Positions 1,374-21,503 of a stretch of 22,645 nt of DNA are shown one piece after another (the first letter of the stretch is position 1; each line of letters begins with the position of its first letter). Source of the DNA: a virus. The stretch spans positions 1 to 22,645 of IMG/VR virus record IMGVR_UViG_3300031566_000394. The stretch is one strand, 5' to 3'. A program made the position numbers and the translations under genes. The notes below the pieces were generated by a model, which made no database searches, was not told the DNA's origin, and saw only the letters and a list, made by a program, of their open reading frames with translations.

Positions 1374-2933
1374 CTAGGTGATCACCACTGTGCTACCAGA
1401 GTCGTCCCCGGCGGTGTTGCCGAGCGGCTGTAGGTCGATAGCGACAGTACCATCGAAGTTGACCGTGACCTTCTGCAAGCGGAAATCGTTCACGACCTGG
1501 CGACAAGTGGCCTGGCTGTCAACTCGCAGACGCATGCCGGGGATCAACTGCTCCAAGGTGATCGGCGCAGTCGTCTTGAGTCCCGCTCCGCTGGGAGTCT
1601 CGATGAAGAAGGCATCCTTGAGCAGATCGACGCGGGTCTTGGCGGCCAACGCTGCCGTGGCCTCATCTTCGATGTCCGGCTCATCGAACACCCTGACGAT
1701 GTGCCCGTAGTAGTCAAGGTAGGCCGCTTCCGCGTAGGCGGTTGCCTGGACCCCCTTGCCCTTGACCACCACGACGGTGGCCTGGTCGTTGCCGCGCTGG
1801 CGGATCTTCGGTGGGGTGGTCCAATGCTCATCGAGGAGCGTGACGTAGGGCTGGGCGTCTACTTCCTCTCCGCCGACAAGGACGTAGCGGCCGTAGGCGG
1901 TGTAGTCGATGCCGGTCTTGGCCAACTCATCGATGGCGTCGGCGACGTACTGGTAGTTGTTCTTCGTGTACGAACGCGTCCCAGCCACCCCCGTCGGGCT
2001 GGTGACGAGTTGGATGTTGGGGGTCGGGTCAGGCGCCATGGCGGCGGCGTTCAAGCCGATGAGGATGTCGGTCAAGTCATCGCCAACGAAGGTCAGGTCG
2101 GGCACCACTCGGCGGTCCCACCACGAGGTGATGTCGTCGGCGTCCAACTTGATCGCGCCGTACTCGAACGCCACGTCGGTCACCGGACCACACCAGGCGT
2201 CGCGACCATCGCGGTAGACAAGGATCTCCGTCGCCCATGTTCGGATGTCGTCCCACCCCTCACAGCAGAGTTCACCGCCGCGCCCGGTGACGATGCCATC
2301 CATCGTCAACTCCGAGGTGCCATCGAGGACGCGAGTGAACTGACCACTAGTGGGCTTCAACTCGGCGATCACCGTCCTCGCCCCCTTCGACACGAGCATC
2401 ACCCTCAGGTCGTTGCCGTCACCAAGGAGGCCGCCGGGGCGACAAGAAGTGAATCCCTGGATGTCGAGGGGCACGGGGCAGAGCAACTCGCATTCGCAGT
2501 CCACCTGGATCGTGTTGATCAGGGTGCGAAGTCCCTCGGGGTCCTCGTACACCTCGATGGCCCACGCTTGCCCGCAAGGCAGTTGCATCACGATGCACTG
2601 CTGCTCGTCGGCTACGAGGTTCAGGATGGTCGATTCGGCCGTCTCGGGGTTGACGATCTCGACGGTGGCCGCCGCTCCGATAGCAGTCACGCAGATTTCG
2701 ATGGTGGCGTTGCACCCAGCGTCGGCACCAGCCTCGAACTCGACTTCGATGACCGGCTCAGGGGGCACATCGCCCTCGGCGGCCAACACCTCGATGACCG
2801 TCTGAGAGGCGCGAGCGTCGGCCGCTACGCCAGAAGCGAGGACCTCGACGGCCTCCTGAGAGACGCGGGCGTCGGCTTCCGTGCCGGAAGCCAGCACCTC
2901 AAGGGCCTCCTGAGAGACGCGGGCGTCGGCCAT
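1374..2933 (-). CDS. Tail hub / minor tail protein (Tal-like)
   Basis: A 519-aa protein. The start at 2933 lies 3 bases after the LamG-gene stop with only a weak Shine-Dalgarno, so translation is probably coupled. Residues 1-54 are three 18-residue repeats (ADARVSQEAxEVLASG), a VSQ..VEVL motif seen in other phage tail proteins. Residues 60-150 are a beta domain with CNATIEIC and CECELLC. From about 165 the protein looks like an actinophage minor tail/hub protein: SGQFTRVLDGTSE, then ELCCEGWDDIRTW, then EILVYRDGRDAWCGPV and DDITSWWDRR. The C-terminal part continues the hub-like fold (PGMRLRVDSQATCRQVVNDF). It most likely forms the baseplate hub at the tail tip below the distal-tail ring. I see no peptidase motif. 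Confidence 0.75.
   Translation of the reverse strand: MADARVSQEALEVLASGTEADARVSQEAVEVLASGVAADARASQTVIEVLAAEGDVPPEPVIEVEFEAGADAGCNATIEICVTAIGAAATVEIVNPETAESTILNLVADEQQCIVMQLPCGQAWAIEVYEDPEGLRTLINTIQVDCECELLCPVPLDIQGFTSCRPGGLLGDGNDLRVMLVSKGARTVIAELKPTSGQFTRVLDGTSELTMDGIVTGRGGELCCEGWDDIRTWATEILVYRDGRDAWCGPVTDVAFEYGAIKLDADDITSWWDRRVVPDLTFVGDDLTDILIGLNAAAMAPDPTPNIQLVTSPTGVAGTRSYTKNNYQYVADAIDELAKTGIDYTAYGRYVLVGGEEVDAQPYVTLLDEHWTTPPKIRQRGNDQATVVVVKGKGVQATAYAEAAYLDYYGHIVRVFDEPDIEDEATAALAAKTRVDLLKDAFFIETPSGAGLKTTAPITLEQLIPGMRLRVDSQATCRQVVNDFRLQKVTVNFDGTVAIDLQPLGNTAGDDSGSTVVIT
2796..2930 (-). repeat. 54-bp tandem repeat encoding VSQ..EVL units
   Basis: Three in-frame 54-bp units at the 5' end of the hub gene. 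The two promoter-proximal units share an identical 27-base core at 2904-2930 and 2850-2876. The third, at about 2796-2822, is diverged. Near identity of two units suggests a recent duplication. Confidence 0.8.
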
Positions 2934-3985: not shown

Positions 3986-6900
3986 CTACCACCCGGAAGC
4001 GACGTACCTGCCGACCGCTCCAACGCTCACCATAGCATCTGCGGCCGTGTTCCTGCAGTCCGCCTGAGCCACGATGCAGAACGTGGAGCACTGACCGATG
4101 TCGAACCACCCGAAGGGCTTGCCGTCACCGGAGAAGATGTACCGAAGCGCGTTGACGGTACGCCCGCTGGACAGAACCAACTGAGCGATGCGCTGCCGCG
4201 AGTCAATGATCAACTTGGAGTTCTTGGGCAACTGAGGCACCAGGATCGTGGCGCATGGGTCGCGGCAGTCCCAGAAGTCGTCGGCCGGATCGCACGGGCA
4301 CGGGACCTTCTCGCCGAAGGGGTTGCGGTACGCCTCGATCTTGAGGTTCCGCATCTCCTCGGAGCCGGTCTGGACCTCGACGTAGGTCGTGGCCTCGTTC
4401 CAATCCGCCGGGTTGGTGAAGGTGCAGCACACCCGTGCCTGCTCCCACGGCTCACAGAAGCACTCCCCCGCGGTGAACAGCGTGGGGGGAGGAGGCTGGA
4501 CCGGGAACGGCCCACAGTCGGGGACGAACTCGTCGTAGGGGACCTCAACCAACTGCTTGATCGGGCTGAGGTCTTGCTCGGCACCGTTGACCGTGGCGAT
4601 GTAGAGCGTGCAGTTCTCTGGCGGGAAAACACCCTCTGGGTCGTAGTCCCAACCGATCGGCTCCCAACTGCGGCTGTTGGGGAACCCGAAGGAGATCCCG
4701 TTGTCGTGCATCCACTGGATCTGCAGGTAGTTGGTGTCGGACTCCGGCACGTCAGCGAAGAAGGGGGGCAGCGACGGGACGAAGATCGGCACCACGAACG
4801 GCGGGCTTCCGGCGTTGCGGTAGAAGAAGGAGGCCATGGCCTGGCGCGAGGTGGGATCGGTCGGTCGGAAGGTGCCGTCGCCAAACCCGAACACGATTCC
4901 GTTGGCGGCACACCACTCGATCTGCAGGTAAAAGGGGTGGATCGGGGAGACATCCGTGAAGGTTTGGACGGCTGGGGGCACGAAGGGGGGGGCGCCGTTC
5001 TGGTTGTAGAACGCTACGGCCGCTGCCTGGCGGCTGAGGTCGGTGTCAGGAAGGAAATTGGGACCGGGGACCCCGGTCATGATGCCGACGGAGTTGACCC
5101 ATTCGATCTCAAGGTACTGAGCATCAGTGAGGGGCACGTCGAGGAAGGTCGGCACGCCCGGCGGGATGAACGGGGGCGACCCGGCCTCGCGGTAGAAGGT
5201 GAGGGCGGCCGTGCGGCGCAACAAGTCGTTAGTGGGCTGGAACGTGCTATCCGCGTACCCAAAGAAGATCCCCTGGTCGTGGGACCACTCGATCTCGGTG
5301 AAGAAGGGGTATGTCGATGGGACATCGACGAAGGTCGGGTACTCGTTCGCGTAGCGGTAGAAGGTGATGGCCGCAGCCCGACGAGTCAGGCAGTCGGTGG
5401 GGCGGAAGGTCCCGTCGGGGTACCCAAGGAAGATGCCCTCAGAGTGGCTCCACTCGATCTCCAAGTAGAAGCCATCTCCCGTTCCGACATCGGAGAACGA
5501 CGGCGTGGCGGGAGGCACGAAGGCGGGACTTCCGGCGTCGCGGTAGTAGGTGGTGGCGGCGACCTGGCGGGAGACAGGGGTCTCGGGGCGGAAGGTCCCG
5601 TCGGGGTAGCCGTTGAGCAGCCCCACTGAAAAGGCCCACTCGATCTCCAAGTAGAACTGGTTGGAGGTGAGCAGATCGGGGAACGACGGCGTGGCGGGAG
5701 GCACGAAAGGCGGCGACCCGTTGTAGCGGTAGAAGAAGGCCGCCCACGACTGACGCGTGGTGCACCTGGCGGGCAAGTAGTCCGTGTCGCAGACGATATT
5801 GATGGGGCACTGCGTCGGATCGGCCGGGCACGACCCCTCGTCAGCGATCACGCAGATTTCGGCGATCTCAACGCAGTCGCACTCAGGGAACGCCGGGAGG
5901 TCGCCGCTCCAACGGATCGGCTCCCAGGTGGTCGATCCGGTCCCCTCGTCGTAGATCACGCGGATCAAGCAGTTGTTGTTGTCGGAGACGCAACCCTCCT
6001 GGGTCACGTTGGTACTGACCGAGGACGCTCCTCCCGAAAGCGAAACGTCGAAACCAGCAGCGCTCGCCGGTTCGCCCAACACCCCCGTGAAGAAGGTGAC
6101 GGTGTAGGGGGTCGTACCGCCGTCATCGCCAGGGCCGCCCGTGACCAAGACATCCCCAGGGTCGATGTTGGAGAGTCCCTCGATGGCGCCCTGCAGGGTG
6201 GCGGCTGACGCCGTGGCGTTCACGTTGACGTTCTGGACCGACCCGTTCGCGTCCACGAAGATGGCCCATTGGCCGCCGGTCGCATCGACCGTGAACTCAA
6301 CGATCTCATCCTGTGTCTCGGGGCACTCCCCGCAGGTCCCGCCGAACAGAACGACCAGATCACAGAACTTCGGAGGGAACCCGTCGCTCAACTCGAAGTT
6401 GAGGGGAATCCACGTCTTGTCGTCATAGAGGCCGATGATGCAGGGGTTGTCGTCAGTGGCACTACCCGTGCAGTCGGTGTTCTCGTCGGGGTCGTACTCC
6501 ACCACCTCGTTGATGTCGAGGGAGCAATCGATCGGCGGGCATCCATCCTCGGCGACATCCCACCCGACCGGGCACCAGGCGCCGTCGTGGAGAACGTCGA
6601 TTGGGCACGTCGGGCGCGTCGTCTCGACCTCAACGAACTTGGTGGCGTCCTCGGTCGAGCAGGAGTTGCACAACTTGCGGAGGTCGAGGCAGTAGCAGTT
6701 GTCGAGATCGAACGTCTGGTCCTGAATGCACCAGTCGATGTCGGAGAAGATGTAGGGGAACTCAGAGCACAGAGTGAACTGCACCTTGATGTTCACGCAG
6801 CCGCAGTCGTTCGAGCAGCACGTCCCCCTGCGCTCGATCACCTTGGGGCCGTCGGTGATCCCGACGCGGTGCATCAGGCGAACGTAGTCCTCGGGGTTGT

Positions 6901-7894
6901 AACCCGAGAGCGTCTCGAAGCAGCGAACCTGAGTGGGTGAGGTCATCACGACCAAGGTGGCGGAGGGGTAGACGGCGAGGTACTCGGTGACCTGCTCGGT
7001 GAAGTTCAGAATGTCCCGAGCAACGTCGTCACACGACCCCTCGACATTGGTGTCCACCATGAAGGTGAGGCTGGCGCCGCTGCCCGAAGGTGCCGTGAAG
7101 TCGAGAGTGATGGCTTCTTGGGGGACAAGGAAAGTGAAGATGGCTCCGAGATCATCGGCGACGACGAAGCGGAACGAGTTGCCAGCCCCATAACACGAGG
7201 GGATGGGACCGTCCGTGTTGTTGGGCACCCCGGCTGGATCGGAGATCAAGTTCGCCTGGTTCGAGTCATCGATCTCGAAGGTGTAGGTACCGTCCGCGTT
7301 GTCGGTGACGGTGAACCAGACGTTGAGATCAGGAACCGTGTCGGTGACTCCCACCTCGTTGGTGTAGCAACTGTCCCCCTCGGGGGGGCAGCACTTGATC
7401 ATGTAGAGGTCGCCGTAGGCGCAGTCCTCACAGAAATTGTTGCCCATGAGTGCTTCCTGCAGCCAGCGCAGTCCGTACTCCGCCCCGCAGCAGGTCTTGG
7501 CCATCAGCCAGCCCGTGACGGTCATGCAACGACCGCCGAGACGCATGGGGCCAAGAGAGCCGCCCGAGATGGCACCCTCTGAGAAGTCGCGACGAATCGT
7601 AGAGTCAAAGCCCGTCAACTCGGTGACGAACAGCCCGGCGAAGTCCTCGGAGTCCGGCACGCCAGAGTCGAACCACGGGGCGTCATCGAGTCGCGGCGAC
7701 GTGAAGGCGCCATCCTCTCCGGCTCCCTGGTCGCAGTAGAGGCAGATGGCGTCACAACCGCAGTCAGCGCTGACGACGGTGCTGGGGAGGGCCAACCCAG
7801 GGATGCCCGCAGCAGGGTCGCCCTTCAAGTACGCGACGACGCGCTGGTTGTTCCAGACCTCGGTTGAGTTGAAGTACGCGTAGCCGCCGTACAT
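3986..7894 (-). CDS. Giant distal tail (Dit-like) protein with SLH repeat array
   Basis: A 1302-aa protein. ATG 7894 overlaps the tape measure stop by one base (TGATG). Residues 1-160 look like a distal-tail N-terminal domain (YGGYAYFNSTEVWNNQRV, then LFVTELTGFDS). The last 100 residues close that fold (SKLIIDSRQRIAQLVL, FGWFDIGQCSTFCIVAQADC). Between them are a Cys-rich beta region and four copies of a module with pattern C.I...D..W.P..W....PP..C, near residues 430, 485, 642 and 696. The fourth copy is interrupted at about 709-1072 by S-layer-homology repeats (YLEIEW, GYPDGTFRP and AAxxFYR motifs). A plain Dit protein is a few hundred residues, so most of this one is insertion. It should form the ring at the tail tip with SLH repeats displayed outward. 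The host ligand is inferred, not seen. An alternative name is minor tail protein. Confidence 0.8.
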   Translation of the reverse strand: MYGGYAYFNSTEVWNNQRVVAYLKGDPAAGIPGLALPSTVVSADCGCDAICLYCDQGAGEDGAFTSPRLDDAPWFDSGVPDSEDFAGLFVTELTGFDSTIRRDFSEGAISGGSLGPMRLGGRCMTVTGWLMAKTCCGAEYGLRWLQEALMGNNFCEDCAYGDLYMIKCCPPEGDSCYTNEVGVTDTVPDLNVWFTVTDNADGTYTFEIDDSNQANLISDPAGVPNNTDGPIPSCYGAGNSFRFVVADDLGAIFTFLVPQEAITLDFTAPSGSGASLTFMVDTNVEGSCDDVARDILNFTEQVTEYLAVYPSATLVVMTSPTQVRCFETLSGYNPEDYVRLMHRVGITDGPKVIERRGTCCSNDCGCVNIKVQFTLCSEFPYIFSDIDWCIQDQTFDLDNCYCLDLRKLCNSCSTEDATKFVEVETTRPTCPIDVLHDGAWCPVGWDVAEDGCPPIDCSLDINEVVEYDPDENTDCTGSATDDNPCIIGLYDDKTWIPLNFELSDGFPPKFCDLVVLFGGTCGECPETQDEIVEFTVDATGGQWAIFVDANGSVQNVNVNATASAATLQGAIEGLSNIDPGDVLVTGGPGDDGGTTPYTVTFFTGVLGEPASAAGFDVSLSGGASSVSTNVTQEGCVSDNNNCLIRVIYDEGTGSTTWEPIRWSGDLPAFPECDCVEIAEICVIADEGSCPADPTQCPINIVCDTDYLPARCTTRQSWAAFFYRYNGSPPFVPPATPSFPDLLTSNQFYLEIEWAFSVGLLNGYPDGTFRPETPVSRQVAATTYYRDAGSPAFVPPATPSFSDVGTGDGFYLEIEWSHSEGIFLGYPDGTFRPTDCLTRRAAAITFYRYANEYPTFVDVPSTYPFFTEIEWSHDQGIFFGYADSTFQPTNDLLRRTAALTFYREAGSPPFIPPGVPTFLDVPLTDAQYLEIEWVNSVGIMTGVPGPNFLPDTDLSRQAAAVAFYNQNGAPPFVPPAVQTFTDVSPIHPFYLQIEWCAANGIVFGFGDGTFRPTDPTSRQAMASFFYRNAGSPPFVVPIFVPSLPPFFADVPESDTNYLQIQWMHDNGISFGFPNSRSWEPIGWDYDPEGVFPPENCTLYIATVNGAEQDLSPIKQLVEVPYDEFVPDCGPFPVQPPPPTLFTAGECFCEPWEQARVCCTFTNPADWNEATTYVEVQTGSEEMRNLKIEAYRNPFGEKVPCPCDPADDFWDCRDPCATILVPQLPKNSKLIIDSRQRIAQLVLSSGRTVNALRYIFSGDGKPFGWFDIGQCSTFCIVAQADCRNTAADAMVSVGAVGRYVASGW
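4680..5770 (-). repeat. SLH repeat array inside the distal-tail gene
   Basis: Five complete units of roughly 55-65 residues plus two half units, one at each end. Each unit has F.DV, then Y.EIEW, GI..GYPDGTFRP, then R..AA..FYR, and ends in an AGSPPFVPP-like linker. The linker is lost in the second complete unit. The array begins with the C-terminal half of a unit (CTTRQSWAAFFYR) and ends with the N-terminal half (YLQIQWMHDNGISFGFPN). Repeats differ at many positions, so the array is not a recent exact duplication. Confidence 0.85.
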
Positions 7895-10800
7895 CAGATG
7901 CGTCCCCGCATGGCTGCCTCATCTCGGGCACGGATTTCGGCCCTGACCTGTTCCATCGTAACGCCATGGATGTGGTAGGTATTGCCTGGTCCGCCGCCGA
8001 GGAAGCCTGCCTCGCCGGGAGCGGGGGAGGTGGTGGTCGGGACGTTGGTCTGCACGCCAGCGCCCGTCGGGTTCTGGGAGGCCGCCTGAGCGAGAATGGC
8101 GAACAGTCCAGACGAGCGAGCCAACTGCAGCGCTCGGATCGGATTGGTGAGCGGGAGCACGACTTCTGAGCCGCTCTCCCCGAGCAGCGCCACGATCGCG
8201 TCGTTGATGATGCCGCCCTTGGCGAGCGCCGCGTGAACGTGGTTGTGGTGCTGGGCCTCGACCCGAGAGCCATAGGGCTTGTCGCTGCGCCCGCCGGGAC
8301 CGGAGTAGATCAACTCCTGCAGCGTCCCATCGAGGAACGGCCAGAACGCCTGGTTGATCTTGAGCAGACCGGGGGAGTCGTAGTTGGAATCGTTGGGCGC
8401 CCCGAAGTCCACGGCCCGTGACGAGGCGTGATAGGAGGACCCACCAGGCCGGTAGGTCGAGTTGATCAGGTTCGGGATGCCAGCAGCGTTGAGGTACTGG
8501 ATCAGGTACGGGTACGACCCCGGCCCCTTGTTCTCGGCGAACGTCTGCTTCCACCCGGCGATGTCGAAGCCCTCGGGGAGCACCCCGGCGGGGACCCCAG
8601 CGTTGGCGATCTGCTGGGCCATGTGATCGGCGAACGAATCCTCGCCGCCTCGAATCCATTGGAGCAGGTCGTCCTTGAACCCCTCGATGGTCCCGGCGAC
8701 CATATCGACCACGAAGTTGCCAGGGAACATGCCGCGGAAGGTGTCGAGCAGTGGCTTGATCGTGTTGTTGTAGCCCGTCTCCAAGATGGAGGCAGCGACA
8801 CCTCCGATGACCTCGCGTCCCTTGGCAATGGCATCCCCCACGAACTCCTTGCCAGCCTCGAACGGGTTAGGAACCGAGAACCCGCCGATGTTGTATTGGT
8901 TGTCACCGAACACCTGCGTGTAGTCACCGCGCCTGAGCGAGTCCATCTGCTTGGGCGACAGGTTGGCAACGACCTCGGCGGGGATGACGGCTTCCCCCCG
9001 CTGCAGGAGAGCCAACTGCTCGTTGCTCATCACCGAGTCGCCGATGCGGTGGGTGCGTGAAGCAGCCTCACCGACGATGCCGCCCGTGTGGAACTCCGGC
9101 ACCGAGCCGATCCTCACCCCGGTGGGCATCGGGTTGCCGAGGCCGAACTTGCTGGCGACCTCGTTGACGATTCCAGCGAAGGGGTCCCAGACGTGCTCAA
9201 GGACCCAATTGATCGGGCCGCGGAACACGTCGGCGATGCCTCGGGCCACGCCCCCGATGGCTTCGGGGATGCCCACGATGAAGTCGATGACTCCCTGGAA
9301 CACCCCGGTGATCTGGTCCTTCAACCAGTTGAAGGTCGTGGAGACGACGTTCCAGATCGTCTCGCCTGCAGTCGTGAGGGTGGAGGCGATGCGGCCGGGG
9401 AGTTCTGAGAAGAAGGTCCAGACCCCATCCACGATGTCGGAGAAGCGGGCCTTCAACCAATCGAAGGTGGCAGAGATCCCGTTCCAGATCGTCTCGCCAG
9501 CGGTGGCCAAGAAGGACACCACGCGGCCGGGCAACTCTTGGAAGAAGGTCACCACACCATCAACGAGGTTCAAGAACTGATCCTTCAACCAGCCCCACGA
9601 AGTCTGGATTGCGTTCCAGATGAACTCGCCAGCGGTGCTGAGGAACCCGACAATCTGACCAGGCAACTCCTCGGCGAAGCCCACGACGGCCCAGAAGATG
9701 TCGTGAATCTGGTCCCGCAGCCACTCCCACGAGGTCTTGACTGCCTCCCAGATGAACTCCCCAATGCCCGCCAGGAGTTCGACAATCTTGCCGGGCATCT
9801 CAGTGAAGAAGGTCCACAACCACTCCCACACGGTGGGCCACGCCTCGGCGATGAAGTTGACCGCCGTCTGGAAGGCGGTCCAGATGAACTCGCCGAGTCC
9901 GGTCAGCAGATTCCAGATGGTTCCAGGGAGGCCGGTGAAGAAGTCCCACAGCCAGCCCCACAGGGTCGCGTAGAGGCCAGCCACGAACCGAACGGCCGCC
10001 TGGAAGGCATCCCACAACTTGGGACCGAGATCCTGCAACCAACCCCAGATCATGCCGGGCAAGTCCATAATGAACTTCGCAGAAGCGATGAACCCGTCAA
10101 CGAAGGTGAGGATCACGAGGCGGGCAACACCGAAGAACCCTGCCAGCAGGGTTTCAGCGGTCGCGAGGAAGGCGTCCCACATCATGCCAGGGAGTGACTT
10201 CATGAAGTCCCAGATGGCGGGGACAGCGATACTCAACCCCTGCAGGATCAGCCCAAGGATCGCCCCGCCAACCTCCCACAGCCCGCTGGCGATCGATCCA
10301 ACGATATTGACCAACTGAACGGGGAGGCTGAGGAACAAGTCGAGCAGGCCGCCGAACTTGCCGTTGGCGGCGTCGATGATGAACCCGACGATGGCCTCAC
10401 CGACCGCCCACACGGCATTCATGATGGTGCCGGGAAGGCCGGTGAAGAAGTCGATGACGCGGGGGCCGAACTCCACGAACGCTCCCACGAGGAGACCGGC
10501 GGCGTCCCCCATGAAGGACAGGATCTTGCCAGGCAACTCGGCGAACCAATTGAAGATCAGGGGGCCGTTGGTCGTCAGCCACTCGATGGCGCGCGGGATG
10601 AACTCGCCGATGGCGCTGACGATGCGGGGGATGACCTCAGTGATGATCAGGTAGGGGATGCCCACCAAGGCGGCGACGATGCCAATACCGATCCACTTGA
10701 GGGCGTTGAGCAACATCCCCGGACCGTTCTCCTTGAGCCAATCAAAGGCGGACCCAAGGGCATCGAGCAGCGCGGTCCCGATGCGAGGCACCCACTCGCT

Positions 10801-13800
10801 GAGGAACTCACCAATGCGGCCGAACGCACCGCCGATCATCTCGGCCAGGCTGATAGCGATGCTGCCGATGAACTCCGGGGAGTTGGAGATCGCATCCGCG
10901 ATGGAGGAGAAGATGGACGAGATGAGGTCGGGGAGGCGATCGAGGAACTCGGTCACCTTCGATGGCAGCGTGTCGAACACGAACCGGAAGATGTCCACGA
11001 ACCGATCGATCAGCCACCCACCGACAGGGCCAACAAGGTCACCGATCAGGCTGACGGACTCAGTGATGACCGTCCACAGCAACTTGCCCATCTCGACAGC
11101 CAGGGTCCCGATGAACTGACCCAAGCCCACGATCATGTTGAGCAGGCCCTCGATGATGGTGGGTCCGTACTCCAAGACGGCGTTGAAGATGGCGACGCCC
11201 GCCTGGGGCAGCCACTCGGTGAACAGCGTGTTGAGTCCTCCCAGCAACGCTCCGCCGATGGAGGCCAAGTTGCCAACGAGCCACTCGATGGCTCCGCTGA
11301 TCGCGTTGAGCAGGAACTCGCCGATCTTCTGGATGAGGGACTGCTCGTCCTCCGGCCCCGGAGCGACGGCTTCGCCGATGGCGTTGCCCGCCCCCGACGC
11401 GGCCGCTCCCCCGCCACCCGTGATGGCATCCCAGATGATGCTGGGGAGATCGCGCAGGAAGTCGAACCCAGCGACGATCCAGCCGCGCAGCGTCTCTCCG
11501 ATGTCGGGCAACTGATCGCCCAGGTTGGAGAAGAAGTCTCCGATCGAAGGGAGCACCTGGCCGAACACGAAGTTCAGAGCGTCGCCGAGTGCGGTGGGGA
11601 GCGTCGAGGTGATGAAGTTCCAGATGGCGTCGCCGACAGCGCCAGCGGCGTTGGACAGCCATCCCCAAGCGGCGCCGAACGCGTCCGCCAGGATCGGCCC
11701 GAGGAAGGCTCCCAGGTCACCGAGCAGGCCGGGGATCTGCTGCAGCGCTCCCCAGATGGCGCTCCCAAGGGTGGAAAGCATCTCGGGCACGCTGGTTACG
11801 AAGTCGCGGATGCCGCTGCCGATGTCGCCGAGGGAGTTCTCGATCATCTCCCATGCGGCGCCGAAGGCTTCGGTGACGCGCCCCCAACCCTCGGAGATCA
11901 TGTCCAGGTCGAGAGAGAAGATGCCCTTGAGGATGTCGAACAGACCGCCGAGCGCTCCCGTCAATCCGTTGACGATGCCCCGCAGGAGGTCAAAGACCGG
12001 CCCGATGATCGGGATGTTGCCGAAGGCTTCGAGGATGGTGTCCACGAAGGCGCCCAGCATCCGACTGACCTCGGCCGTCAGGCCAGAGACGCCGCCGAGG
12101 ATTCCGGTGACCAGACCATCGAACACCTGCTGCAGTCCGCCAACGATCTGATCGCCGTCGAGGTGGAAGATGCCAGCGATGATGTTCCAAAGGCCCCTCA
12201 GCGTGTCCGCCACGCCCGAGAAGATTTCTTGGATGTTCTGCCAAGCCCCCTGCACGGCCTGGCGGAACTCCTCGGATCGCTCGTAGACCGTCTTGATGAG
12301 AACGCCGACGGCGATGACAGCGATGGCGATGACCGCGGCGGTGGCCGCAACGCTGGTTCCGATGGCGGCGGCCACGCCAGCAAACCCACCACCAGCGGTG
12401 GTGAAGGCGGTAGACATGACGGTCCATGCTGCGATCATGGCATCGACGCCAGCGGCAGCATTGAACAGGGCGATAGCGGCCTTGTCGATGGCCACCCCAA
12501 TGGCCGCCGCTCCCTTGACGTACAGGAAGGCGGCCCCCAGGCCATACAACACGGGGATCATGTTGTCGCTGATGAAGTCCGCCAAGGGGATCAGCGCGGG
12601 GAGCAGCAACTCGATCACATCGAGGAACAGATCCGCTGCTTCCCATGCCACCTTGAACGCCGCGTAGAGGATCGTTCCGACGATCGGGGCAAGAGTCTTG
12701 GCGGTCTCGTAGAGACCCTGCAGGATCGGAACGCCAACGTCGCGGAGGAGGGCGAATAGGTCCGCCCCAACTCGGGCGAGTCCCTCCATCGCCGGAACGC
12801 CATACTGCTGGATCAGGCCGAATGCCCTCTCCGCGGCCGTGCCAATCGCGTCGAGGATCTCGTCAAGCCGACCGCTCTGCACGAAGTCGTTGATCCTGTC
12901 GGCGAGAGTCTGGATGATCGGGGCCAGGTTGTCGCCGATCTCCTTGAACAAGGAGTTGGCGTTGCCCTTGGTGTCGGCGAACCAGCCCTTCACTCGCTCC
13001 AAGACGGGACCGAGGGCGTCGCCGAAAGCCTCCACGAGTGAACTGATCGCCTCGCGCAGATCCTCCGACGATCGGTAGAGCAGCACGAAGAAGCCGACCG
13101 CTGCAGCCACGGCGGCTGCGATGGTCAGGAGGACCGGGTGGAACTCGGAGATGAACAGCAGTGCTCGGAAGGACTTGACCAGACCACCCAGGGTCTTGGT
13201 CATGATGCCCATGATCAGACTCACCGGCCCCATGGCCGCGAGGAGTGCTCCGAGAACGAACACGAACTTGAAGATTTCGGGGTTGGTGTCCGACATCTTC
13301 TTCACCCAATCGGCGATCTTGGATGCCATGTCGGTGAAGAAGTCGAGGACGCCGGACTCACCGATGGAGATGGCGAGGTCGATGAGGGCGTTCTTGAGCA
13401 TCAAGAACTGAATGGTGGCGCTCTCGCCGATCGTGTCGGCCATCCTCTGGGCTGAACCGCCAGCCAACTCCAACTCGGCGGTGAACTCGCGCAACTTGGC
13501 GGGGGTCTGACCCATGAGGCCCAAGAGGCCGGGACCAGCGCGCTGGCCGAACAACTTCATGATGTCGCCGGTACGGGCGCCCTTGACGCGCAACTCCTCG
13601 ATCACGTCGGCGAGGGGGATCATGTTGCCGGTGGAGTCGAAGATTTGCAGGTCGAGGCGACCGTAGGTGTCCTTCAAGTCCTCCACCGACGACCCGGTGG
13701 CGGACAGCGCCTCGTTCATCTGCTGAGTCGTGATCTGTCCGGCATCCACCAGAGAGAGAAGTTCGCGACGCGTGTCCTCAAGACTCACGTCGTCAGCCTG

Positions 13801-14712
13801 AGCGAATGCCTCCTCCACCGAGAGGCCGAACTTGGTGAAGATTTCCTCGCTCCGCTGCGTCGGGATAGCCAGGCGGGTGATGATGCCTCGAAGGGCCGTG
13901 CCGCCCACGGTGGCGTCGAAGCCCGACTGAGCCAACAGGCCGAGGGCGGCCGCGGTCTCCTCGAAGGAGAGGCCAGCCTGAGAGGCGACGGGACCGGCGT
14001 AACGGAAGGCGTCGGTGAGGCCCGTGATGTCGGTGGTGGTGAGGGCCGAGGTCTTGGCGATCACGTCGGTGAGACGCTCGAACTCGCCAGCCAGGCCGCC
14101 CATGTCGGACTTCATGCCGCCGAAGATCGACTCGCCTCCCTCACCCAGCGTTCCACCGAAGCCGGTGAACACCTGGATGAGTCGATCCGAAGCGTCGGCG
14201 AGAGAGATGCTCTCAGCCGTAGCCACGTTGATGACCGCGGGCATCGTGGCGATGATGGCCTGGACATCAAGACCGGCGCGGGCCAGGTCGGTGAAGCCCT
14301 GAGCGACCTCGATGGCCGAGAACTTGCCCTGTCGCCCGAACTCGCGAGCGGCGTCCGACAGGTCCTCGTAGAACTTGACGCCCTCGACCGTGTTGAGGTC
14401 GATCTCAGAGACGGCGGCGACCGTGCGAACAGCCTCATCGAAGTCAGCCGCAGCGCCGATCGACGCCTGAGCCATGCGGATCAGGGGTCGGGTGACGCCG
14501 TAGGTCATCGCAAGACCCGTCTGGGTCATGCGCGTTCCGGCTCGGGTGAGGTTGTCGCCCAGGGTGGTCAGTTGCGCGTTGAGTCCACCGAGGTTTCCCG
14601 TGGCGGCGCCAGCCTGGCCGCCAAGGCCACGCAGTTGGCCCTGCAGGGTCGCCGCGAACCCCGACGTGTCGGGGATGATCCGAATAGTTGCAGAACCGAC
14701 GACCTCAGGCAT
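7894..14712 (-). CDS. Tail tape measure protein with M15-like peptidase domain
   Basis: A 2272-aa protein, the longest in the window. ATG 14712 has a weak GGGG Shine-Dalgarno. Residues 80-420 match the TP901-type tape measure core (FDEAVRTVAAVSE, LTDVIAKTSALTTTD, FEETAAALGLLAQSG, GGTALRGIITRL). Hydrophobic stretches lie at about 482-503, 523-547 and 775-807. Residues 900-1815 are helical and Trp-rich, ending in six 44-residue repeats (1550-1814). GGIVGEAASR and LLQRGEAVIPAEVV follow. Residues about 2050-2165 resemble an M15/VanY-type zinc peptidase: SYHASSRAVDFG and HHNHVHAA supply the expected H, D and H ligands. The protein sets tail length and probably carries a peptidoglycan-cleaving domain into the wall at infection. 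Catalytic activity is inferred. Confidence 0.93.
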   Translation of the reverse strand: MPEVVGSATIRIIPDTSGFAATLQGQLRGLGGQAGAATGNLGGLNAQLTTLGDNLTRAGTRMTQTGLAMTYGVTRPLIRMAQASIGAAADFDEAVRTVAAVSEIDLNTVEGVKFYEDLSDAAREFGRQGKFSAIEVAQGFTDLARAGLDVQAIIATMPAVINVATAESISLADASDRLIQVFTGFGGTLGEGGESIFGGMKSDMGGLAGEFERLTDVIAKTSALTTTDITGLTDAFRYAGPVASQAGLSFEETAAALGLLAQSGFDATVGGTALRGIITRLAIPTQRSEEIFTKFGLSVEEAFAQADDVSLEDTRRELLSLVDAGQITTQQMNEALSATGSSVEDLKDTYGRLDLQIFDSTGNMIPLADVIEELRVKGARTGDIMKLFGQRAGPGLLGLMGQTPAKLREFTAELELAGGSAQRMADTIGESATIQFLMLKNALIDLAISIGESGVLDFFTDMASKIADWVKKMSDTNPEIFKFVFVLGALLAAMGPVSLIMGIMTKTLGGLVKSFRALLFISEFHPVLLTIAAAVAAAVGFFVLLYRSSEDLREAISSLVEAFGDALGPVLERVKGWFADTKGNANSLFKEIGDNLAPIIQTLADRINDFVQSGRLDEILDAIGTAAERAFGLIQQYGVPAMEGLARVGADLFALLRDVGVPILQGLYETAKTLAPIVGTILYAAFKVAWEAADLFLDVIELLLPALIPLADFISDNMIPVLYGLGAAFLYVKGAAAIGVAIDKAAIALFNAAAGVDAMIAAWTVMSTAFTTAGGGFAGVAAAIGTSVAATAAVIAIAVIAVGVLIKTVYERSEEFRQAVQGAWQNIQEIFSGVADTLRGLWNIIAGIFHLDGDQIVGGLQQVFDGLVTGILGGVSGLTAEVSRMLGAFVDTILEAFGNIPIIGPVFDLLRGIVNGLTGALGGLFDILKGIFSLDLDMISEGWGRVTEAFGAAWEMIENSLGDIGSGIRDFVTSVPEMLSTLGSAIWGALQQIPGLLGDLGAFLGPILADAFGAAWGWLSNAAGAVGDAIWNFITSTLPTALGDALNFVFGQVLPSIGDFFSNLGDQLPDIGETLRGWIVAGFDFLRDLPSIIWDAITGGGGAAASGAGNAIGEAVAPGPEDEQSLIQKIGEFLLNAISGAIEWLVGNLASIGGALLGGLNTLFTEWLPQAGVAIFNAVLEYGPTIIEGLLNMIVGLGQFIGTLAVEMGKLLWTVITESVSLIGDLVGPVGGWLIDRFVDIFRFVFDTLPSKVTEFLDRLPDLISSIFSSIADAISNSPEFIGSIAISLAEMIGGAFGRIGEFLSEWVPRIGTALLDALGSAFDWLKENGPGMLLNALKWIGIGIVAALVGIPYLIITEVIPRIVSAIGEFIPRAIEWLTTNGPLIFNWFAELPGKILSFMGDAAGLLVGAFVEFGPRVIDFFTGLPGTIMNAVWAVGEAIVGFIIDAANGKFGGLLDLFLSLPVQLVNIVGSIASGLWEVGGAILGLILQGLSIAVPAIWDFMKSLPGMMWDAFLATAETLLAGFFGVARLVILTFVDGFIASAKFIMDLPGMIWGWLQDLGPKLWDAFQAAVRFVAGLYATLWGWLWDFFTGLPGTIWNLLTGLGEFIWTAFQTAVNFIAEAWPTVWEWLWTFFTEMPGKIVELLAGIGEFIWEAVKTSWEWLRDQIHDIFWAVVGFAEELPGQIVGFLSTAGEFIWNAIQTSWGWLKDQFLNLVDGVVTFFQELPGRVVSFLATAGETIWNGISATFDWLKARFSDIVDGVWTFFSELPGRIASTLTTAGETIWNVVSTTFNWLKDQITGVFQGVIDFIVGIPEAIGGVARGIADVFRGPINWVLEHVWDPFAGIVNEVASKFGLGNPMPTGVRIGSVPEFHTGGIVGEAASRTHRIGDSVMSNEQLALLQRGEAVIPAEVVANLSPKQMDSLRRGDYTQVFGDNQYNIGGFSVPNPFEAGKEFVGDAIAKGREVIGGVAASILETGYNNTIKPLLDTFRGMFPGNFVVDMVAGTIEGFKDDLLQWIRGGEDSFADHMAQQIANAGVPAGVLPEGFDIAGWKQTFAENKGPGSYPYLIQYLNAAGIPNLINSTYRPGGSSYHASSRAVDFGAPNDSNYDSPGLLKINQAFWPFLDGTLQELIYSGPGGRSDKPYGSRVEAQHHNHVHAALAKGGIINDAIVALLGESGSEVVLPLTNPIRALQLARSSGLFAILAQAASQNPTGAGVQTNVPTTTSPAPGEAGFLGGGPGNTYHIHGVTMEQVRAEIRARDEAAMRGRI
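9271..10065 (-). repeat. Six 132-bp (44-aa) repeats in the tape measure gene
   Basis: Six consecutive units with consensus .LPG.I...L...GE.IW.A....W.WL.D....V..F.. ; the first five are exactly 44 residues by count and the last is 45. LPG at position 2 and the GE.IW block are most conserved. The protein repeat is clear, but the DNA copies are diverged. The two upstream units (DLPGMIW, GLPGTIW) are less like the other four. Confidence 0.85.
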
Positions 14713-15960: not shown

Positions 15961-16527
15961 TCACGATGAGCCAGGTTCGCCGTACCAGCAGGAGTCGAGT
16001 TCAAAGCCGTAGGTCAGGGTCCACCCAGCGCACCCGCCGCGCGGACCCTCGGGAGTCACGTCGCCGATGGCGAACTCAAGGCACTCGGCATCCTCGGTGG
16101 TAGGGAACAAGAGGCCCTGGCATTGGGCCGAATCGATGCAGCAACGGAGAACCTGCAGGTCGATGAGCAGGTTCTCTGCTGCCGCCTGCATCTCAGCGGC
16201 GGGAGGGAAGGGGTTGGTGGCGTTGTCCTTGAGCGTGGGGAAGCACGGCCTCATCAGGCGCACGCCGATGTCGGCCACGCCGCCAACGTCTCCGCACTTG
16301 GCCCAGACCTTCTCGCCCGTGATGTAGGCAGCGTTGTCGAATCCAATCCGAGGACGGATGCGGTCAAGCCAGATCGCGAGGAAGTCGCAGCAATCGTCAG
16401 GCGGCTTGTTGTGGCTGATGTAGCAGTCCGCCGGGGCGCCATCGGGCGTGTCCACCAGACAGTTGCAGGCCACGTCGAGGATGGACTGCATCATGTTGTT
16501 GATGTGGTCGGGGTTGAGGAGAGCCAT
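15961..16527 (-). CDS. Head-tail connector-like protein, Cys-rich
   Basis: A 188-aa protein. ATG 16527 (MALLNPDHINN) overlaps the adaptor stop by one base (TGATG). A longer frame upstream is rejected because it lies wholly within the adaptor gene. The sequence begins with helices, then ADCYISHNKPPDDCCDFLAI, WLDRIRPR, MRPCFPTLKDN and a C-terminal GWTLTYGFELDSCWYGE. It has 13 cysteines by my count, including two CC pairs. I do not recognise it from motif alone. Its position between the adaptor and the gp10-like gene is that of a connector or tail terminator. Function is inferred from order. Confidence 0.65.
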   Translation of the reverse strand: MALLNPDHINNMMQSILDVACNCLVDTPDGAPADCYISHNKPPDDCCDFLAIWLDRIRPRIGFDNAAYITGEKVWAKCGDVGGVADIGVRLMRPCFPTLKDNATNPFPPAAEMQAAAENLLIDLQVLRCCIDSAQCQGLLFPTTEDAECLEFAIGDVTPEGPRGGCAGWTLTYGFELDSCWYGEPGSS

Positions 16528-17357
16528 CAGCCGGTGTAGGTCCTGATGTTGCGGGGCTTGTCTGCCCGGTGGGCGCGAGCGCGCCGCTTCAACTTGGAAG
16601 GATTGACCGACTGCAGCCACATGTCAACCTCGTAGATGCCAGTCTGGAAGTTGTCGATGAACTCCAACGGATCGGCGAATGCCATCTCCACGCCCTGGCG
16701 CGTGATGTTCTTGAGGCGCTGAGGGAGGCACGACTCGCCGCCGCACCGATTGAGGGCGATCTGGCAAGCGAAGATCGAAGCAGCAATGCGTCCATCGAGA
16801 GGGACGGGCTTCCCGTAGGAGTAGGTGATGGTGAAGGTCTGGGGGTCACCAACGTCACCAGCGATGTTGGACTGGCACGGCCAATCCTGACCATCGAGAC
16901 GCACGATGCGTCGATACGCCTGGATGCCCATGGCGTCGAGAGGGACCACCTCGCCGTCGATGACGACCTCGATGATCTCGTTCACGGTTGAGGGCAGATC
17001 GACGTGAGGGAGGCAGCAGGTGTTGCAGTAGCGGCCGCAGTTGATGAAGCCGTCGCCCGTCCCGTTGGTCATCGGCCATGCCGGATAGTTGTGCCACGCC
17101 CACCACCAGTCGTTGCCGAGAGCAGATGCCGCTCCTCCGCAGCCGCAACCACAGCCGCAGTTCTCTCCGCGGCAGGCCCAGACGGTGCGCTCACACACGC
17201 CAGGGAACTGGCGCCCCGAGAGTCGGAACAAGATGGCCGAGGCGAAGGTGATGGCCGCGGTCAGGTCGTACAGCGGGTCCAGACCCGCGCAGCACTCTTG
17301 GACCTCCTCAGGGGTGGTCCAAGGCTCGCATGGAACTTGAACAGGTGGAGCGGCCAT
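16527..17357 (-). CDS. Head-tail adaptor protein, Cys-rich
   Basis: A 276-aa protein starting at ATG 17357, with GAGGTG about 5 bases upstream. It resembles actinophage head-to-tail adaptors: an N-terminal helical segment (PWTTPEEVQECCAGLDPLYD, AAITFASAILFRLSGRQFPG), a CERTVWACRG strand, a middle beta region (LPSTVNEIIEVVIDGEVV, YRRIVRLDGQDWPCQ), a YSYGKPVP turn, a helix with AASIFACQIALNRCGGESC, and a C-terminal DPLEFIDNFQTGIYEVDMWL segment. It has 17 cysteines by my count, four of them in a CGCGCGC run at about 69-75. Adaptors of this type dock on the portal and receive the tail. No Zn site can be asserted from sequence alone. Confidence 0.75.
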   Translation of the reverse strand: MAAPPVQVPCEPWTTPEEVQECCAGLDPLYDLTAAITFASAILFRLSGRQFPGVCERTVWACRGENCGCGCGCGGAASALGNDWWWAWHNYPAWPMTNGTGDGFINCGRYCNTCCLPHVDLPSTVNEIIEVVIDGEVVPLDAMGIQAYRRIVRLDGQDWPCQSNIAGDVGDPQTFTITYSYGKPVPLDGRIAASIFACQIALNRCGGESCLPQRLKNITRQGVEMAFADPLEFIDNFQTGIYEVDMWLQSVNPSKLKRRARAHRADKPRNIRTYTG

Positions 17358-18060: not shown

Positions 18061-18558
18061 TCAGGCTACTGCCATCCACTCCTCCCAGGCGGGGTCCATG
18101 GACCCCACGATGAGGATGATGCGCCGGTTGCCCTCTGGCTCGACGGGCTGGAACCTCATCTTCCAACCCATCTCCTCGGGCGTGCGGTTGTCCTTGATCT
18201 GGTTGCAGTCGTAGCAGCACGCCACCACGTTCTTCCACGAGTGCTGACCGCCACGACTCCGAGGGATGATGTGGTCCATCGTGGAGGCGCGGTCACCGCA
18301 GTAGCAGCACTCGTGGTCGTCGCGCTGCAGGATGGTCTTGCGACTCAGGTACGCCTTGCGGAAGCGCGGGATGTTGACGTAGCGCACCAGCCGGATGACC
18401 GCCGGGGCATCGAGGGAGAACGAGGCCGACCGCACGGCGCGGTCGCGCGCCGAGATGACCTCGGCCTTCTCGGCCAAGACCAGCACAACGGCGCGCTTGA
18501 GCGAGACGACACAGATCGGCTCGAAAGTAGCGTTGAGAAGTAGCACTCGTTCAGACAT
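18061..18558 (-). CDS. HNH endonuclease
   Basis: A 165-aa protein starting at ATG 18558. The N-terminus (SERVLLLNATFEPICVVSL) and a KRAVVLVLAEKAEV segment match a large actinobacterial HNH family. The HNH core is complete: CCYCGDRAS, then MDHIIPRSRGG with the catalytic DH pair, HSWKNVVACCYDCN, and a NR ending. The two CXXC pairs form the usual structural zinc site. It probably cuts DNA. It could be a homing-type free-standing endonuclease or have a packaging role, but packaging HNH proteins usually lie beside terminase, not in the tail genes. Hairpins lie on both sides. No Shine-Dalgarno is seen, and the -10 is so near the ATG that a leaderless mRNA is possible. Confidence 0.9.
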   Translation of the reverse strand: MSERVLLLNATFEPICVVSLKRAVVLVLAEKAEVISARDRAVRSASFSLDAPAVIRLVRYVNIPRFRKAYLSRKTILQRDDHECCYCGDRASTMDHIIPRSRGGQHSWKNVVACCYDCNQIKDNRTPEEMGWKMRFQPVEPEGNRRIILIVGSMDPAWEEWMAVA

Positions 18559-18664: not shown

Positions 18665-19474
18665 TCAGGAGGACGCCGCCGTGACCGGGACGTAGCCGCA
18701 GTCATCGATCGGGTCCGGCAGAGCGCCGACGCACTTCCAAGCCAGGGGACCGCCCGCCTGGATCGCAGCCTGATCGGCCAGGGTCCAGGGATCAGCCGTC
18801 ACCTGCGGGGGCAGGTTCGGGTTCGGGTTGCCCGGAGCCGGACCCGTGGGCTTGCCGGTGGGGTCGCCACCGCCGGGGACGTAGGACGGGAAGGTGCCAT
18901 CGGGGTACGACGGGAACCACAGTGGGTTGTTCTCGGCGTAGCCCATCACGGTGATCTCAAGGGGACCGTTGGAGAAGTTGAGTCCTCCACTGATCTCCCA
19001 ATTGATCGAGCGAGGCAGAACCCAATGGATGTAGAGGTTCTGCGTGGCGCCGTCCACCGTGCACTGACCCTTGTCGGCGTTCTTGGACCAGAACTCCAAC
19101 TGCTTCGACTGCTCGCACGCGGCGTCCTTGGACTCCCGCATGACTGCGCCGTTGAAGCCGCCAGCGCCATCGGAGAGCAGAGTCGCGCCGGTCAGCATCT
19201 CGATCACGGGGAGCGGGATGCCACACAACTTCAACTCGATCTCGAAGCCCTTGAGGCGATCGCAGTCCTTGTCACGGATGCAGATGTCGCCGCAGCCGTT
19301 CTTGGTGGTGATGTCCTCGCCCGACTCCACGTCCGGCGAGAGGTTCAACTCCATGAACCCAGCGCTCTGGATGCGGCTGTTCGGAACGAGTGGATCGAGT
19401 GCGATGTCGCACTCGTCCTGGCGCGTGATCCGCATGGCACACGCCTTGATGGACTTGGGGCAGCAGATTGCCAT
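18665..19474 (-). CDS. Major tail (tube) protein, paralogue B
   Basis: A 269-aa protein. ATG 19474 has AGGAGG upstream, as expected for a highly made protein. The N-terminus MAICCPKSIKACAMRITRQ is nearly the same as in the paralogue at 20098-20901; the two are roughly 60% identical by eye along their length. Shared blocks include PNSRIQSAGFMEL, CGDICI, CDRLKGFEIELKLCG, GATLL, NWEISGGLNF, GYAENNP and SYVPGGGDP. The C-terminus has a Gly/Pro-rich linker, then ADPWTLADQA and KCVGALPDPIDDCGY. The beta-rich body, two copies and strong initiation site fit a tail tube subunit. I identify it by context, not by a family motif; a decoration protein is possible. Confidence 0.65.
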   Translation of the reverse strand: MAICCPKSIKACAMRITRQDECDIALDPLVPNSRIQSAGFMELNLSPDVESGEDITTKNGCGDICIRDKDCDRLKGFEIELKLCGIPLPVIEMLTGATLLSDGAGGFNGAVMRESKDAACEQSKQLEFWSKNADKGQCTVDGATQNLYIHWVLPRSINWEISGGLNFSNGPLEITVMGYAENNPLWFPSYPDGTFPSYVPGGGDPTGKPTGPAPGNPNPNLPPQVTADPWTLADQAAIQAGGPLAWKCVGALPDPIDDCGYVPVTAASS

Positions 19475-19852: not shown

Positions 19853-20098
19853 TTAGCGTTCGATGGCCCGGTAGGCAAGAACGTCGCCGTCCTCGCCACC
19901 TTGGCGTACTTCCACCATAGTCGATTCTGGTGCCAGGCTAAGGTTTACCGAGTAGCGCGTGTTGCCATCGAGTTCGATGGTCGCCTCGGGCACCACCCCC
20001 GAGACGTGGAACGGCTCGCGATGCCCGGATCGGTTCGCCAGCAGCACCTCGATGCTGCCGTCGTCGTTGGAACGCAGGGCGGCTTCCAGGCGGCCCAC
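19853..20098 (-). CDS. Small beta-rich protein, hypothetical
   Basis: An 81-aa protein. GTG 20098 overlaps the TAG stop of tail-tube paralogue A (TAGTG), so the start is set by coupling. The longer frame upstream lies inside the tube gene. The sequence alternates polar and hydrophobic residues (GSIEVLLANRSG, FHVSGVVPEATIELDG, YSVNLSLAPESTMVEV), so it should be mostly beta strand. It has no Cys, unlike its neighbours. I do not recognise it. Confidence 0.65.
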   Translation of the reverse strand: MGRLEAALRSNDDGSIEVLLANRSGHREPFHVSGVVPEATIELDGNTRYSVNLSLAPESTMVEVRQGGEDGDVLAYRAIER

Positions 20099-20901
20099 TA
20101 GTTCACCACCAGGGGAGCGTCGGACGGGGCGTAGGCGCAGTCGTCCAGGGGGGAGGGGAGCGCCCCCACGCACTTCCACACGAGCGGTCCGGCCGACTGG
20201 ATCACGGCCTGATCGGCCACGCTCCACGGATCGGCGGCGATGCCGTCGGGGAGCGTCGGCGGCGGGGGTCCGGTCGGGAACCCGGCGGGGTCGCCGCCGC
20301 CCGGAACGTAGGATGCGAAATCCGCACCAGGGTACGAGGGGTAGAAGTTGGGGTTGTTCTCGGCGTAGCCCGACAGCGTGAACTCAAGGGGTCCGCTGTT
20401 GAAGTTGAGGCCCCCAGAGACCTCCCACTTGAGGGTGCGCGGGAGCAACCAGTGAATCCACAGGTTGGTGGGGGTGCCATTGGCATCGCAAGACCCCTTC
20501 TCCGCGTTCTTGGTCCACAACTCCAACATCTTGTTGTCGGAGCAGTAGATGCTCTTGGTCTCCCTCAGGGCGCCACCAACGAAGTTCCCCGACCCGTCGT
20601 CAAGAAGCGTGGCGCCAATGAGCATCTCAAGAACGGTGAGCGGGACCCCGCAGACCCTCAGTTCGATGTTGAAGCCCTTGAGTCGGTCGCAGCCGCGATC
20701 GGTGATGCAGATGTCGCCACACTGGTTGGCGATCTCCAACACATCGCCCTGGCTGATGTCGGGGGCGAGGGCCAACTCCATGAACCCGGCAGTCTGAATG
20801 CGCGAGTTGGGGGTCAATGGATCGAGAGGCACATCAGAGGCGCCCAGGCGCGTGATGCGAAGGGCACATGCCTTGATCGACTTGGGGCAACAGATTGCCA
20901 T
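20098..20901 (-). CDS. Major tail (tube) protein, paralogue A
   Basis: A 267-aa protein. I chose ATG 20901 (MAICCPKSIKACALRITRL): it has a strong AGGAGG 7 bases upstream and the same N-terminus as paralogue B. The longer frame upstream lies inside the preceding gene. Conserved blocks are PNSRIQTAGFMEL, CGDICITDRGCDRLKGF, GATLLDDGSG, KWEVSGGLNF, GYAENNP, SYVPGGGDP and KCVGALPSPLDDCAY. The middle (residues 110-140) and the Pro-rich linker before ADPWSVADQA differ most. It is the first of the two tube-like genes transcribed. The role is inferred from duplication, beta-rich sequence and context. Confidence 0.65.
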   Translation of the reverse strand: MAICCPKSIKACALRITRLGASDVPLDPLTPNSRIQTAGFMELALAPDISQGDVLEIANQCGDICITDRGCDRLKGFNIELRVCGVPLTVLEMLIGATLLDDGSGNFVGGALRETKSIYCSDNKMLELWTKNAEKGSCDANGTPTNLWIHWLLPRTLKWEVSGGLNFNSGPLEFTLSGYAENNPNFYPSYPGADFASYVPGGGDPAGFPTGPPPPTLPDGIAADPWSVADQAVIQSAGPLVWKCVGALPSPLDDCAYAPSDAPLVVN

Positions 20902-20921
20902 GGTGGCCTCCTGTCCCCAGG

Positions 20922-21503
20922 TTAGGTCATCATCGGGACGAACTCGCCACCGGAGTAGCGGGTCACCCACTCGATGAACAGCGCCTCGGTAGCGTCCCAC
21001 GGAGCGCCGCCAGCCGGAGCGTAGGTGGTGTTCCACTCGGAGTCGGCGAGAACCGGAAGCGACCCAGCGTCGAGAGCCTCCCACCACAGCGCCGGGCACT
21101 GTGGGTTAGCCGCGAGGGTACCCGTAGTAGCGTCGGCGTAGATGTGGACCTGCGTCTGCTCGTCGGGACGGAAGCGCCCGGAGATCATCGACAGCGTGAG
21201 GAACTGCTGCAGGACCGCCTGCTTCAACGGGTTGTCGGCGATGTCTGTGAGGAGCAGGGTGATGATGCCCTCGCTGGTCCACTCCATCTCGCCGCCAGCC
21301 AGGAGCATCTGCATGGTGATGCCAGGAGCGTTGATCGGATCGACCTCGGAGGTGTCATCGAGGTAGGTCATCACGAAGTCGGTGATGTCCGACGCGTCGC
21401 CGTGGTCGATGGTCGCGCCGATCGCGGTGAGGGTGAGCGAGCCGTTGTCGCGCGCCTCGGTGCGGAAGAACGAACGCTGAACCTGGCTGATGTCGTCAAT
21501 CAT
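20922..21503 (-). CDS. Phage structural protein of unknown role
   Basis: A 193-aa protein. ATG 21503 (MIDDISQVQRSFFRTEAR) overlaps the previous stop (TGATG), with GGAGGAG just upstream. A longer in-frame start at 21836 is rejected because it would overlap the 101-aa gene entirely. The sequence has no Cys-rich segment (one Cys, NPQCPALWWEAL), a central helix (LKQAVLQQFLTLSMIS) and a C-terminal segment of aromatic and acidic residues (LFIEWVTRYSGGEFVP). I do not recognise it. Its position just before the tube genes suggests a head or neck structural role. Confidence 0.6.
   Translation of the reverse strand: MIDDISQVQRSFFRTEARDNGSLTLTAIGATIDHGDASDITDFVMTYLDDTSEVDPINAPGITMQMLLAGGEMEWTSEGIITLLLTDIADNPLKQAVLQQFLTLSMISGRFRPDEQTQVHIYADATTGTLAANPQCPALWWEALDAGSLPVLADSEWNTTYAPAGGAPWDATEALFIEWVTRYSGGEFVPMMT

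Follow-up and report, generated by a model that had tools for sequence, protein, structure and literature searches.

A six-repeat S-layer homology array inserted into a Dit-type tail protein of a probable actinobacterial phage

Introduction

Bacteria use S-layer homology (SLH) repeats for fixing proteins to their own cell wall. In SpaA of Paenibacillus alvei, Arg43 of the SLH domain is in contact with the pyruvate of the wall polymer, and a backbone flip required in binding is made possible by Gly29 (PMC6081394). The ligand of SLH repeats is made by CsaB, and Bacillus anthracis phages dependent on CsaB are known (PMC9703825), so that the wall layer carrying the SLH ligand can matter in infection. 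Moreover, phages themselves employ SLH repeats as a cell-wall-binding module in lysins, for example in LysBT1 (PMC12285257), in the endolysin of MTATph1 and in many lysins of IMG/VR, where the repeats target an enzyme.

A second group of described systems are the distal tail (Dit) proteins, the genes of which directly follow the tape-measure gene in the standard siphophage gene order (PMC7291167). In the "evolved Dits" of lactococcal skunaviruses and other lactic phages the Dit scaffold is enlarged by module insertion, the presence of the insert varies among close relatives, and the glycan-binding inserts are thought or shown to aid adsorption (PMC10688798, PMC7291167). These inserts are carbohydrate-binding modules (CBMs; PMC7291167) with a beta-sandwich fold located in galectin loops, and in skunaviruses they restore adsorption on exopolysaccharide-bearing hosts (PMC10688798).

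In the present study, a Dit-type tail protein is described that carries an alpha-helical SLH array in a Cys/Trp mini-module of an actinophage-type Dit instead of a beta-sandwich in a galectin loop, and in which the SLH repeats belong to a structural tail-tip protein and not to an enzyme as in the lysins. Evolved Dits with other sugar-binding inserts were already known; a literature search for an SLH array in a Dit returned an SLH endolysin and the csaB-dependent anthrax phages, and no SLH repeats in a Dit. The analysed stretch of DNA, referred to as the window, comprises 22,645 nucleotides (positions 1 to 22,645 of the IMG/VR record IMGVR_UViG_3300031566_000394), and all of its features given below lie on the minus strand.

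Results

Dit scaffold and gene context

The gene at 3986..7894 encodes a protein of 1302 aa, as delimited by open reading frame, translation and family matches. It is located directly after the tape-measure gene (7894..14712, 2272 aa; PhageMin_Tail at 2e-34, phrog_1272 at 4.4e-100), the end of which overlaps with its start codon, and it thereby occupies the position of a Dit gene. The second gene downstream encodes a minor tail protein (1374..2933; phrog_837 at 4.6e-36).

Both ends of the protein match phrog_838, the N-terminal domain (residues 1-173, 7376..7894) at profile positions 2-175 with 4.3e-51 and the C-terminal domain (residues 1140-1302, 3989..4477) at positions 287-424 with 3.3e-9 from about residue 1145 onwards (278-424 at the widest), the latter also being aligned with the homologue from Saccharomonospora phage PIS 136. 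This family has no assigned function; homologues from cultured actinophages bear the annotation "minor tail protein", and their genes are located after the tape measure. The N-terminal domain is ~42% identical to those of phage PIS 136 and of Streptomyces phage TurkishDelight. The respective proteins, PIS_006 and gp29, share the homologous N- and C-terminal scaffold and the gene position after the tape measure, but they have a length of only about 440-475 aa and contain neither SLH repeats nor Cys/Trp mini-modules. Alignment with both proteins additionally delimits a region of residues ~174-340 (6875..7375) that is not found in the relatives of ~440 aa and for which Pfam gives no match. A further region, residues 529-636 (5987..6310), matches phrog_5042, which is without assigned function, and is absent from the related loci L003 and L004.

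No solved structure was matched by sequence with the profile of the N-terminal domain. The fold was assessed on L018, a relative without SLH repeats, and not on the 1302-aa protein itself; the N-terminal domains of the two proteins are 48% to 53% identical. The AlphaFold model of L018 (45 alignment rows, pLDDT 79.0, pTM 0.78) has the SPP1 Dit gp19.1 (2x8k) as its best match among solved structures (E = 6.3e-07, prob 1.00), followed by the Dit-containing baseplates of Douge, monocin (tip), 80alpha and NF5, with TM-scores that are moderate (0.55-0.59 by target length), which is not surprising in view of the extra domains. Gene position, profile and the fold predicted for this relative agree and are consistent with a Dit-type protein. 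The preliminary description of the locus, made from the nucleotide sequence, had already considered the ends of the protein as Dit-like, a view which is upheld by the two phrog_838 matches and by the similarity of the L018 model to the SPP1 Dit.

Several other observations were made in the structural gene cluster. In the C-terminal part of the tape measure (8113-8595) the stretch SSYHASSRAVDFG...HHNHVH resembles a metallopeptidase motif of M15/LAS type, for which searches of Pfam and of solved structures gave no support. Two similar proteins are encoded at 18665-19474 and 20098-21099, both with MAICCPKSIKAC; since the first matches the major tail protein family phrog_792 and resembles the second, the phage may possess two major tail protein paralogs. 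An HNH endonuclease gene lies within the cluster (18061-18558; HNH_5 at 1e-12), and cysteine is unusually abundant in many virion proteins, as in the head-tail adaptor (16527-17357) with CRGENCGCGCGCGG.

Repeat structure of the SLH array

In a Pfam search with the 1302-aa ORF the SLH family PF00395 was the only family found, with E = 3.7e-43 and five matching stretches; a score of 145.7 bits compared with a cut-off of 20.8 places the match far outside chance. Five matches above the cut-off were likewise obtained in the longer copy G001. A part of the array is additionally matched by phrog_1696, named "major tail protein" in PHROGs, at 8.4e-09.

Inspection by eye and by script revealed six core helices, the first residues of which are 713, 775, 837, 892, 954 and 1016, interleaved with six lobes. 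A core helix opens the array and a lobe closes it. The initial count of about five complete repeats and two halves agrees with six units, as the halves complement each other to a sixth repeat, of which the helix stands at the beginning of the array and the lobe at its end. The insert as a whole comprises residues 704-1075 (4670..5785), with its boundaries taken from the uninterrupted site in relatives and with support from PF00395, and these boundaries lie close to the span of 4680-5770 that was given at first. Each unit consists of a core helix and the following lobe: unit 1 covers residues 713-774 (5573..5758), unit 2 residues 775-836 (5387..5572), unit 3, which has a short linker, residues 837-891 (5222..5386), unit 4 residues 892-953 (5036..5221), unit 5 residues 954-1015 (4850..5035) and unit 6, with a divergent last lobe, residues 1016-1075 (4670..4849). 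The best Pfam match (residues 978-1021) spans the border between units 5 and 6. A comparison of lobe identities gave no sign of a duplication of three plus three units. The AlphaFold model of the SLH region, calculated from an alignment of seven rows, reached a pLDDT of 32.1 and was not used for a fold search.

Insertion into a Cys/Trp mini-module

The array lies in a series of Cys-bounded, Trp-containing mini-modules of about 30-40 aa, for which Pfam gives no match. Three copies precede the one that is split by the array: mini-module 1 at residues 430-457 (6524..6607; pattern C.I...D..W.P..W....PP..C), mini-module 2 at residues 485-511 (6362..6442) and mini-module 3 at residues 642-672 (5879..5971). 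The first half of mini-module 4 is formed by residues 696-703 (5786..5809) and its second half by residues 1076-1095 (4610..4669). Tandem mini-modules of this kind (C.I...D..W.P..W....FPP..C; 6607-5879 and 4669-4610 in the window) also occur in L003, L004, L012, L014, L015 and L017.

The site of mini-module 4 is unbroken in the related phages L014 and L015. In L015 the uninterrupted sequence reads CPITVDCD-GSWAPVDWVLDPTAIFPPPGC, compared with CPINIVCD followed by residues 704-1075 and then by SWEPIGWDYDPEGVFPPENC in the 1302-aa protein. Since the flanks are continuous in L015 where the array is located here, the array is nested inside one Cys-bounded mini-module as a modular insertion. As in evolved Dits, an insert in a Dit scaffold is present that is absent from close relatives, and its adhesive nature would follow from the family to which the repeats belong.

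Distribution among related phages

When IMG/VR was scanned with the N-terminal domain, 80 loci were obtained. Nine of these are close (eight further contigs or copies), with 53-77% identity besides an identical copy, where L003 and L016 represent one and the same contig and L004 and L013 likewise. The remaining loci are 28-46% identical, mostly about 430-480 aa long and free of inserts. SLH repeats are present in the same gene of four other viral contigs, namely L003, L004, L012 and L017, the last of which ends within the array, so that its count of three units is a minimum. They are absent from L014 (929 aa), L015 (823 aa) and L018 (611 aa), the ORFs of which each end with a stop codon. The clade has five long basal branches, the order of which is not fixed by the tree, so that one gain of the array is accommodated as well as several.

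A second IMG/VR scan for the signature G[FYW]xDGT[FY]RP confirmed 99 loci, and among the 80 of them that were listed SLH repeats in a tail gene occur only in the five contigs of this clade. The other listed loci, judged by the length of the ORF, the place of the SLH repeats in it and its first residues, resemble lysins, subtilase-like proteins, cyanobacterial porins and secreted S-layer-like proteins. Further cases in tail genes may exist, because the signature is a strict one and tblastn performs poorly with SLH repeats, and phrog_1696 is a tail-annotated family of PHROGs with a partial match. No SLH repeats in a tail gene were found across 50,697 phage records queried with the array, an arthrobacter SLH protein and a Brevibacillus SLH protein; in named phages they occur in an endolysin (Moorella MTATph1), an amidase (Paenibacillus Pd_22F) and a porin (Synechococcus S-CREM1). 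Fecal scaffolds labelled "Bacteriophage sp." also carry SLH repeats; one of them (L006) was rejected as a phage tail case, as it encodes an amidase-like protein with C-terminal SLH repeats and looks bacterial. Another phrog_838 Dit, encoded at 6001-8226 of L071, carries a carbohydrate-binding domain (CBM_4_9) at residues 187-294, and a lysin on a viral contig (L119, 4527-5492) contains three SLH repeats, one with a linker of actinobacterial type.

Pocket residues and selection

The SLH trimers of Paenibacillus SpaA and B. anthracis Sap (PF00395) resemble the phage array in the repeat of lobe and core helix and in the conservation of Arg43 and Gly29. They consist, however, of three units and belong to secreted host proteins, whereas the phage array has six units, begins with a core helix, is devoid of Trp13 and is part of a tail protein. 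Arg43, which belongs to a TRAE-type motif, is present in all six core helices of the array, and Gly29, the second Gly of GIIxG, in all six lobes; both are also found in L003, L004 and L012. At the position of Trp13, which stacks on the sugar in SpaA, the six lobes carry Q, G, P, A, P and T (register of the HMMER alignment and listing). Paenarthrobacter, Pseudarthrobacter and the fecal scaffold L006 likewise have no Trp13 in their SLH repeats, and a Trp at position 20 is kept in these three as well as in the phage array. Since Trp13 is missing though Arg43 and Gly29 are kept, the array may have a ligand other than pyruvylated ManNAc.

Pairwise dN/dS values over the array were 0.16-0.30 and thus close to those of the N-terminal (0.08-0.26) and C-terminal (0.11-0.17) Dit domains, figures that are rough with synonymous sites near saturation. 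Purifying selection acts on the SLH array as it does on the remainder of the protein.

Origin of the array and host

The linker YR..G.P.[FYW]...[FY].D[VLI] is shared by the phage arrays, the SLH proteins of Paenarthrobacter and Pseudarthrobacter and the viral-contig lysin L119, and it was found neither in the SLH protein of Brevibacillus nor in any other of the viral SLH proteins listed. Its occurrence in phage arrays and arthrobacter-type SLH proteins points to an actinobacterial source of the array. The preliminary description had proposed the capture of a surface-anchoring module of the host; the modular insertion, with the site unbroken in L014 and L015, and the actinobacterial type of the repeats support this in part, and the origin from a host surface protein is a step that we infer.

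Matches to the scaffold in cultured phages were almost only from phages of Mycobacterium, Microbacterium, Gordonia, Streptomyces, Arthrobacter and their relatives. Two WhiB genes are present in the 171-kb record of L012, and among the controls WhiB was found only in Corynebacterium glutamicum. Due to these scaffold relatives and WhiB genes, the host is probably an actinobacterium.

A first scan of bacterial genomes for host SLH proteins confirmed no relative, and a second one yielded a weak match over 16 residues in a planctomycete MAG, which was taken as spurious. The SLH proteins of Paenarthrobacter and Pseudarthrobacter plasmids (L091, 2371-4203; L092, 1850-3703) lie in a cluster of prepilin and type II secretion F genes and begin with a prepilin-like segment, so the repeats of these proteins may sit on a pilus.

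Discussion

The locus is best read as an evolved Dit of an actinobacterial siphophage, the SLH-array insert of which is likely to be used in adsorption to a wall glycan. A conserved N- and C-terminal Dit scaffold bears large peripheral insertions, one of them being the six-repeat SLH array. The insertion within a Cys-bounded module would leave the start and the end of the array at a single point, and the permuted order, with a helix first and a lobe last, would bring the ends together and suit a hairpin insertion. SLH repeats in solved cases work in threes, and by this analogy the six repeats suggest two pseudo-trimers per Dit chain. The grooves of these units, lined by the TRAE-like Arg and the second Gly of GIIxG, would bind an anionic glycan of the host wall. 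The Dit ring is a hexamer in other siphophages; if the same is true here, a tail tip would carry 36 repeats, and with this number even weak binding would be enough to hold the tip on the wall with high avidity. The inserts of other evolved Dits, including the phrog_838 protein of L071, are CBMs, and replacement of a CBM by an SLH array would fit this pattern. Adsorption through a wall or surface glycan is the part of this proposal in which we have good confidence; that the glycan is the very polymer used by the SLH proteins of the host is held with less.

The strongest competing explanation concerns the ligand. The array may be adhesive and recognize, in place of a pyruvylated polymer of Firmicute type, some other glycan of the actinobacterial wall or surface, or else a protein on the surface, for instance a component of pili. 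The absence of Trp13 from all lobes and from the actinobacterial-type repeats of Paenarthrobacter, Pseudarthrobacter and L006, together with the retained Trp20, is in favor of such a ligand, as is the location of the actinobacterial SLH genes next to prepilin genes; on the other hand, no unit has lost Arg43 or Gly29, which are important in SpaA for the binding of pyruvate (PMC6081394). Taken together, we regard this as a serious possibility that falls somewhat short of an even chance.

More tentatively, the phage might mimic the anchoring of host proteins, with two closed, permuted pseudo-trimers per Dit chain and up to 36 repeats binding the anionic polymer of the host SLH proteins. If this rather doubtful proposal were true, the phage tip would compete with host surface proteins for the wall polymer, and an unrecognised actinobacterial anchoring glycan, read by a Trp20-type SLH pocket, would be revealed.

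A role of the array as a structural spacer or ring-stabilising decoration without receptor function appears improbable. In its favor, the cores of SLH repeats are helix bundles resembling oligomers, the array is remote from any tested function, and L014, L015 and L018 manage without it, but the presence/absence variation at the same site, the conserved pocket residues and the purifying selection better suit an adhesive module, and the inserts of other Dits are carbohydrate-binding modules (PMC7291167), including that of L071 from the same family. An artefact of assembly, or a joining of host DNA to a phage contig, retains next to no probability as the source of the SLH block, although the contig is metagenomic and the phage has no isolate. 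This explanation is refuted by independent contigs with the same architecture, which come from no fewer than three other metagenome samples and are 57-77% identical in the N-terminal domain, as well as by the uninterrupted frame, the conserved boundaries and the purifying selection.

The adsorption reading joins two well-studied subjects between which no earlier link was found, namely the gain of adhesive inserts by Dits and the anchoring of bacterial proteins to the wall by SLH repeats. The array also is a clear example of a nested module insertion for which the uninterrupted site survives in relatives. The literature search found no described ligand for actinobacterial SLH proteins, which lack the Trp13 of the solved complexes. 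If binding is confirmed, the fragment would be a ready probe for the ligand of these proteins, and a polymer used by the host for wall anchoring would be shown to serve as a phage receptor.
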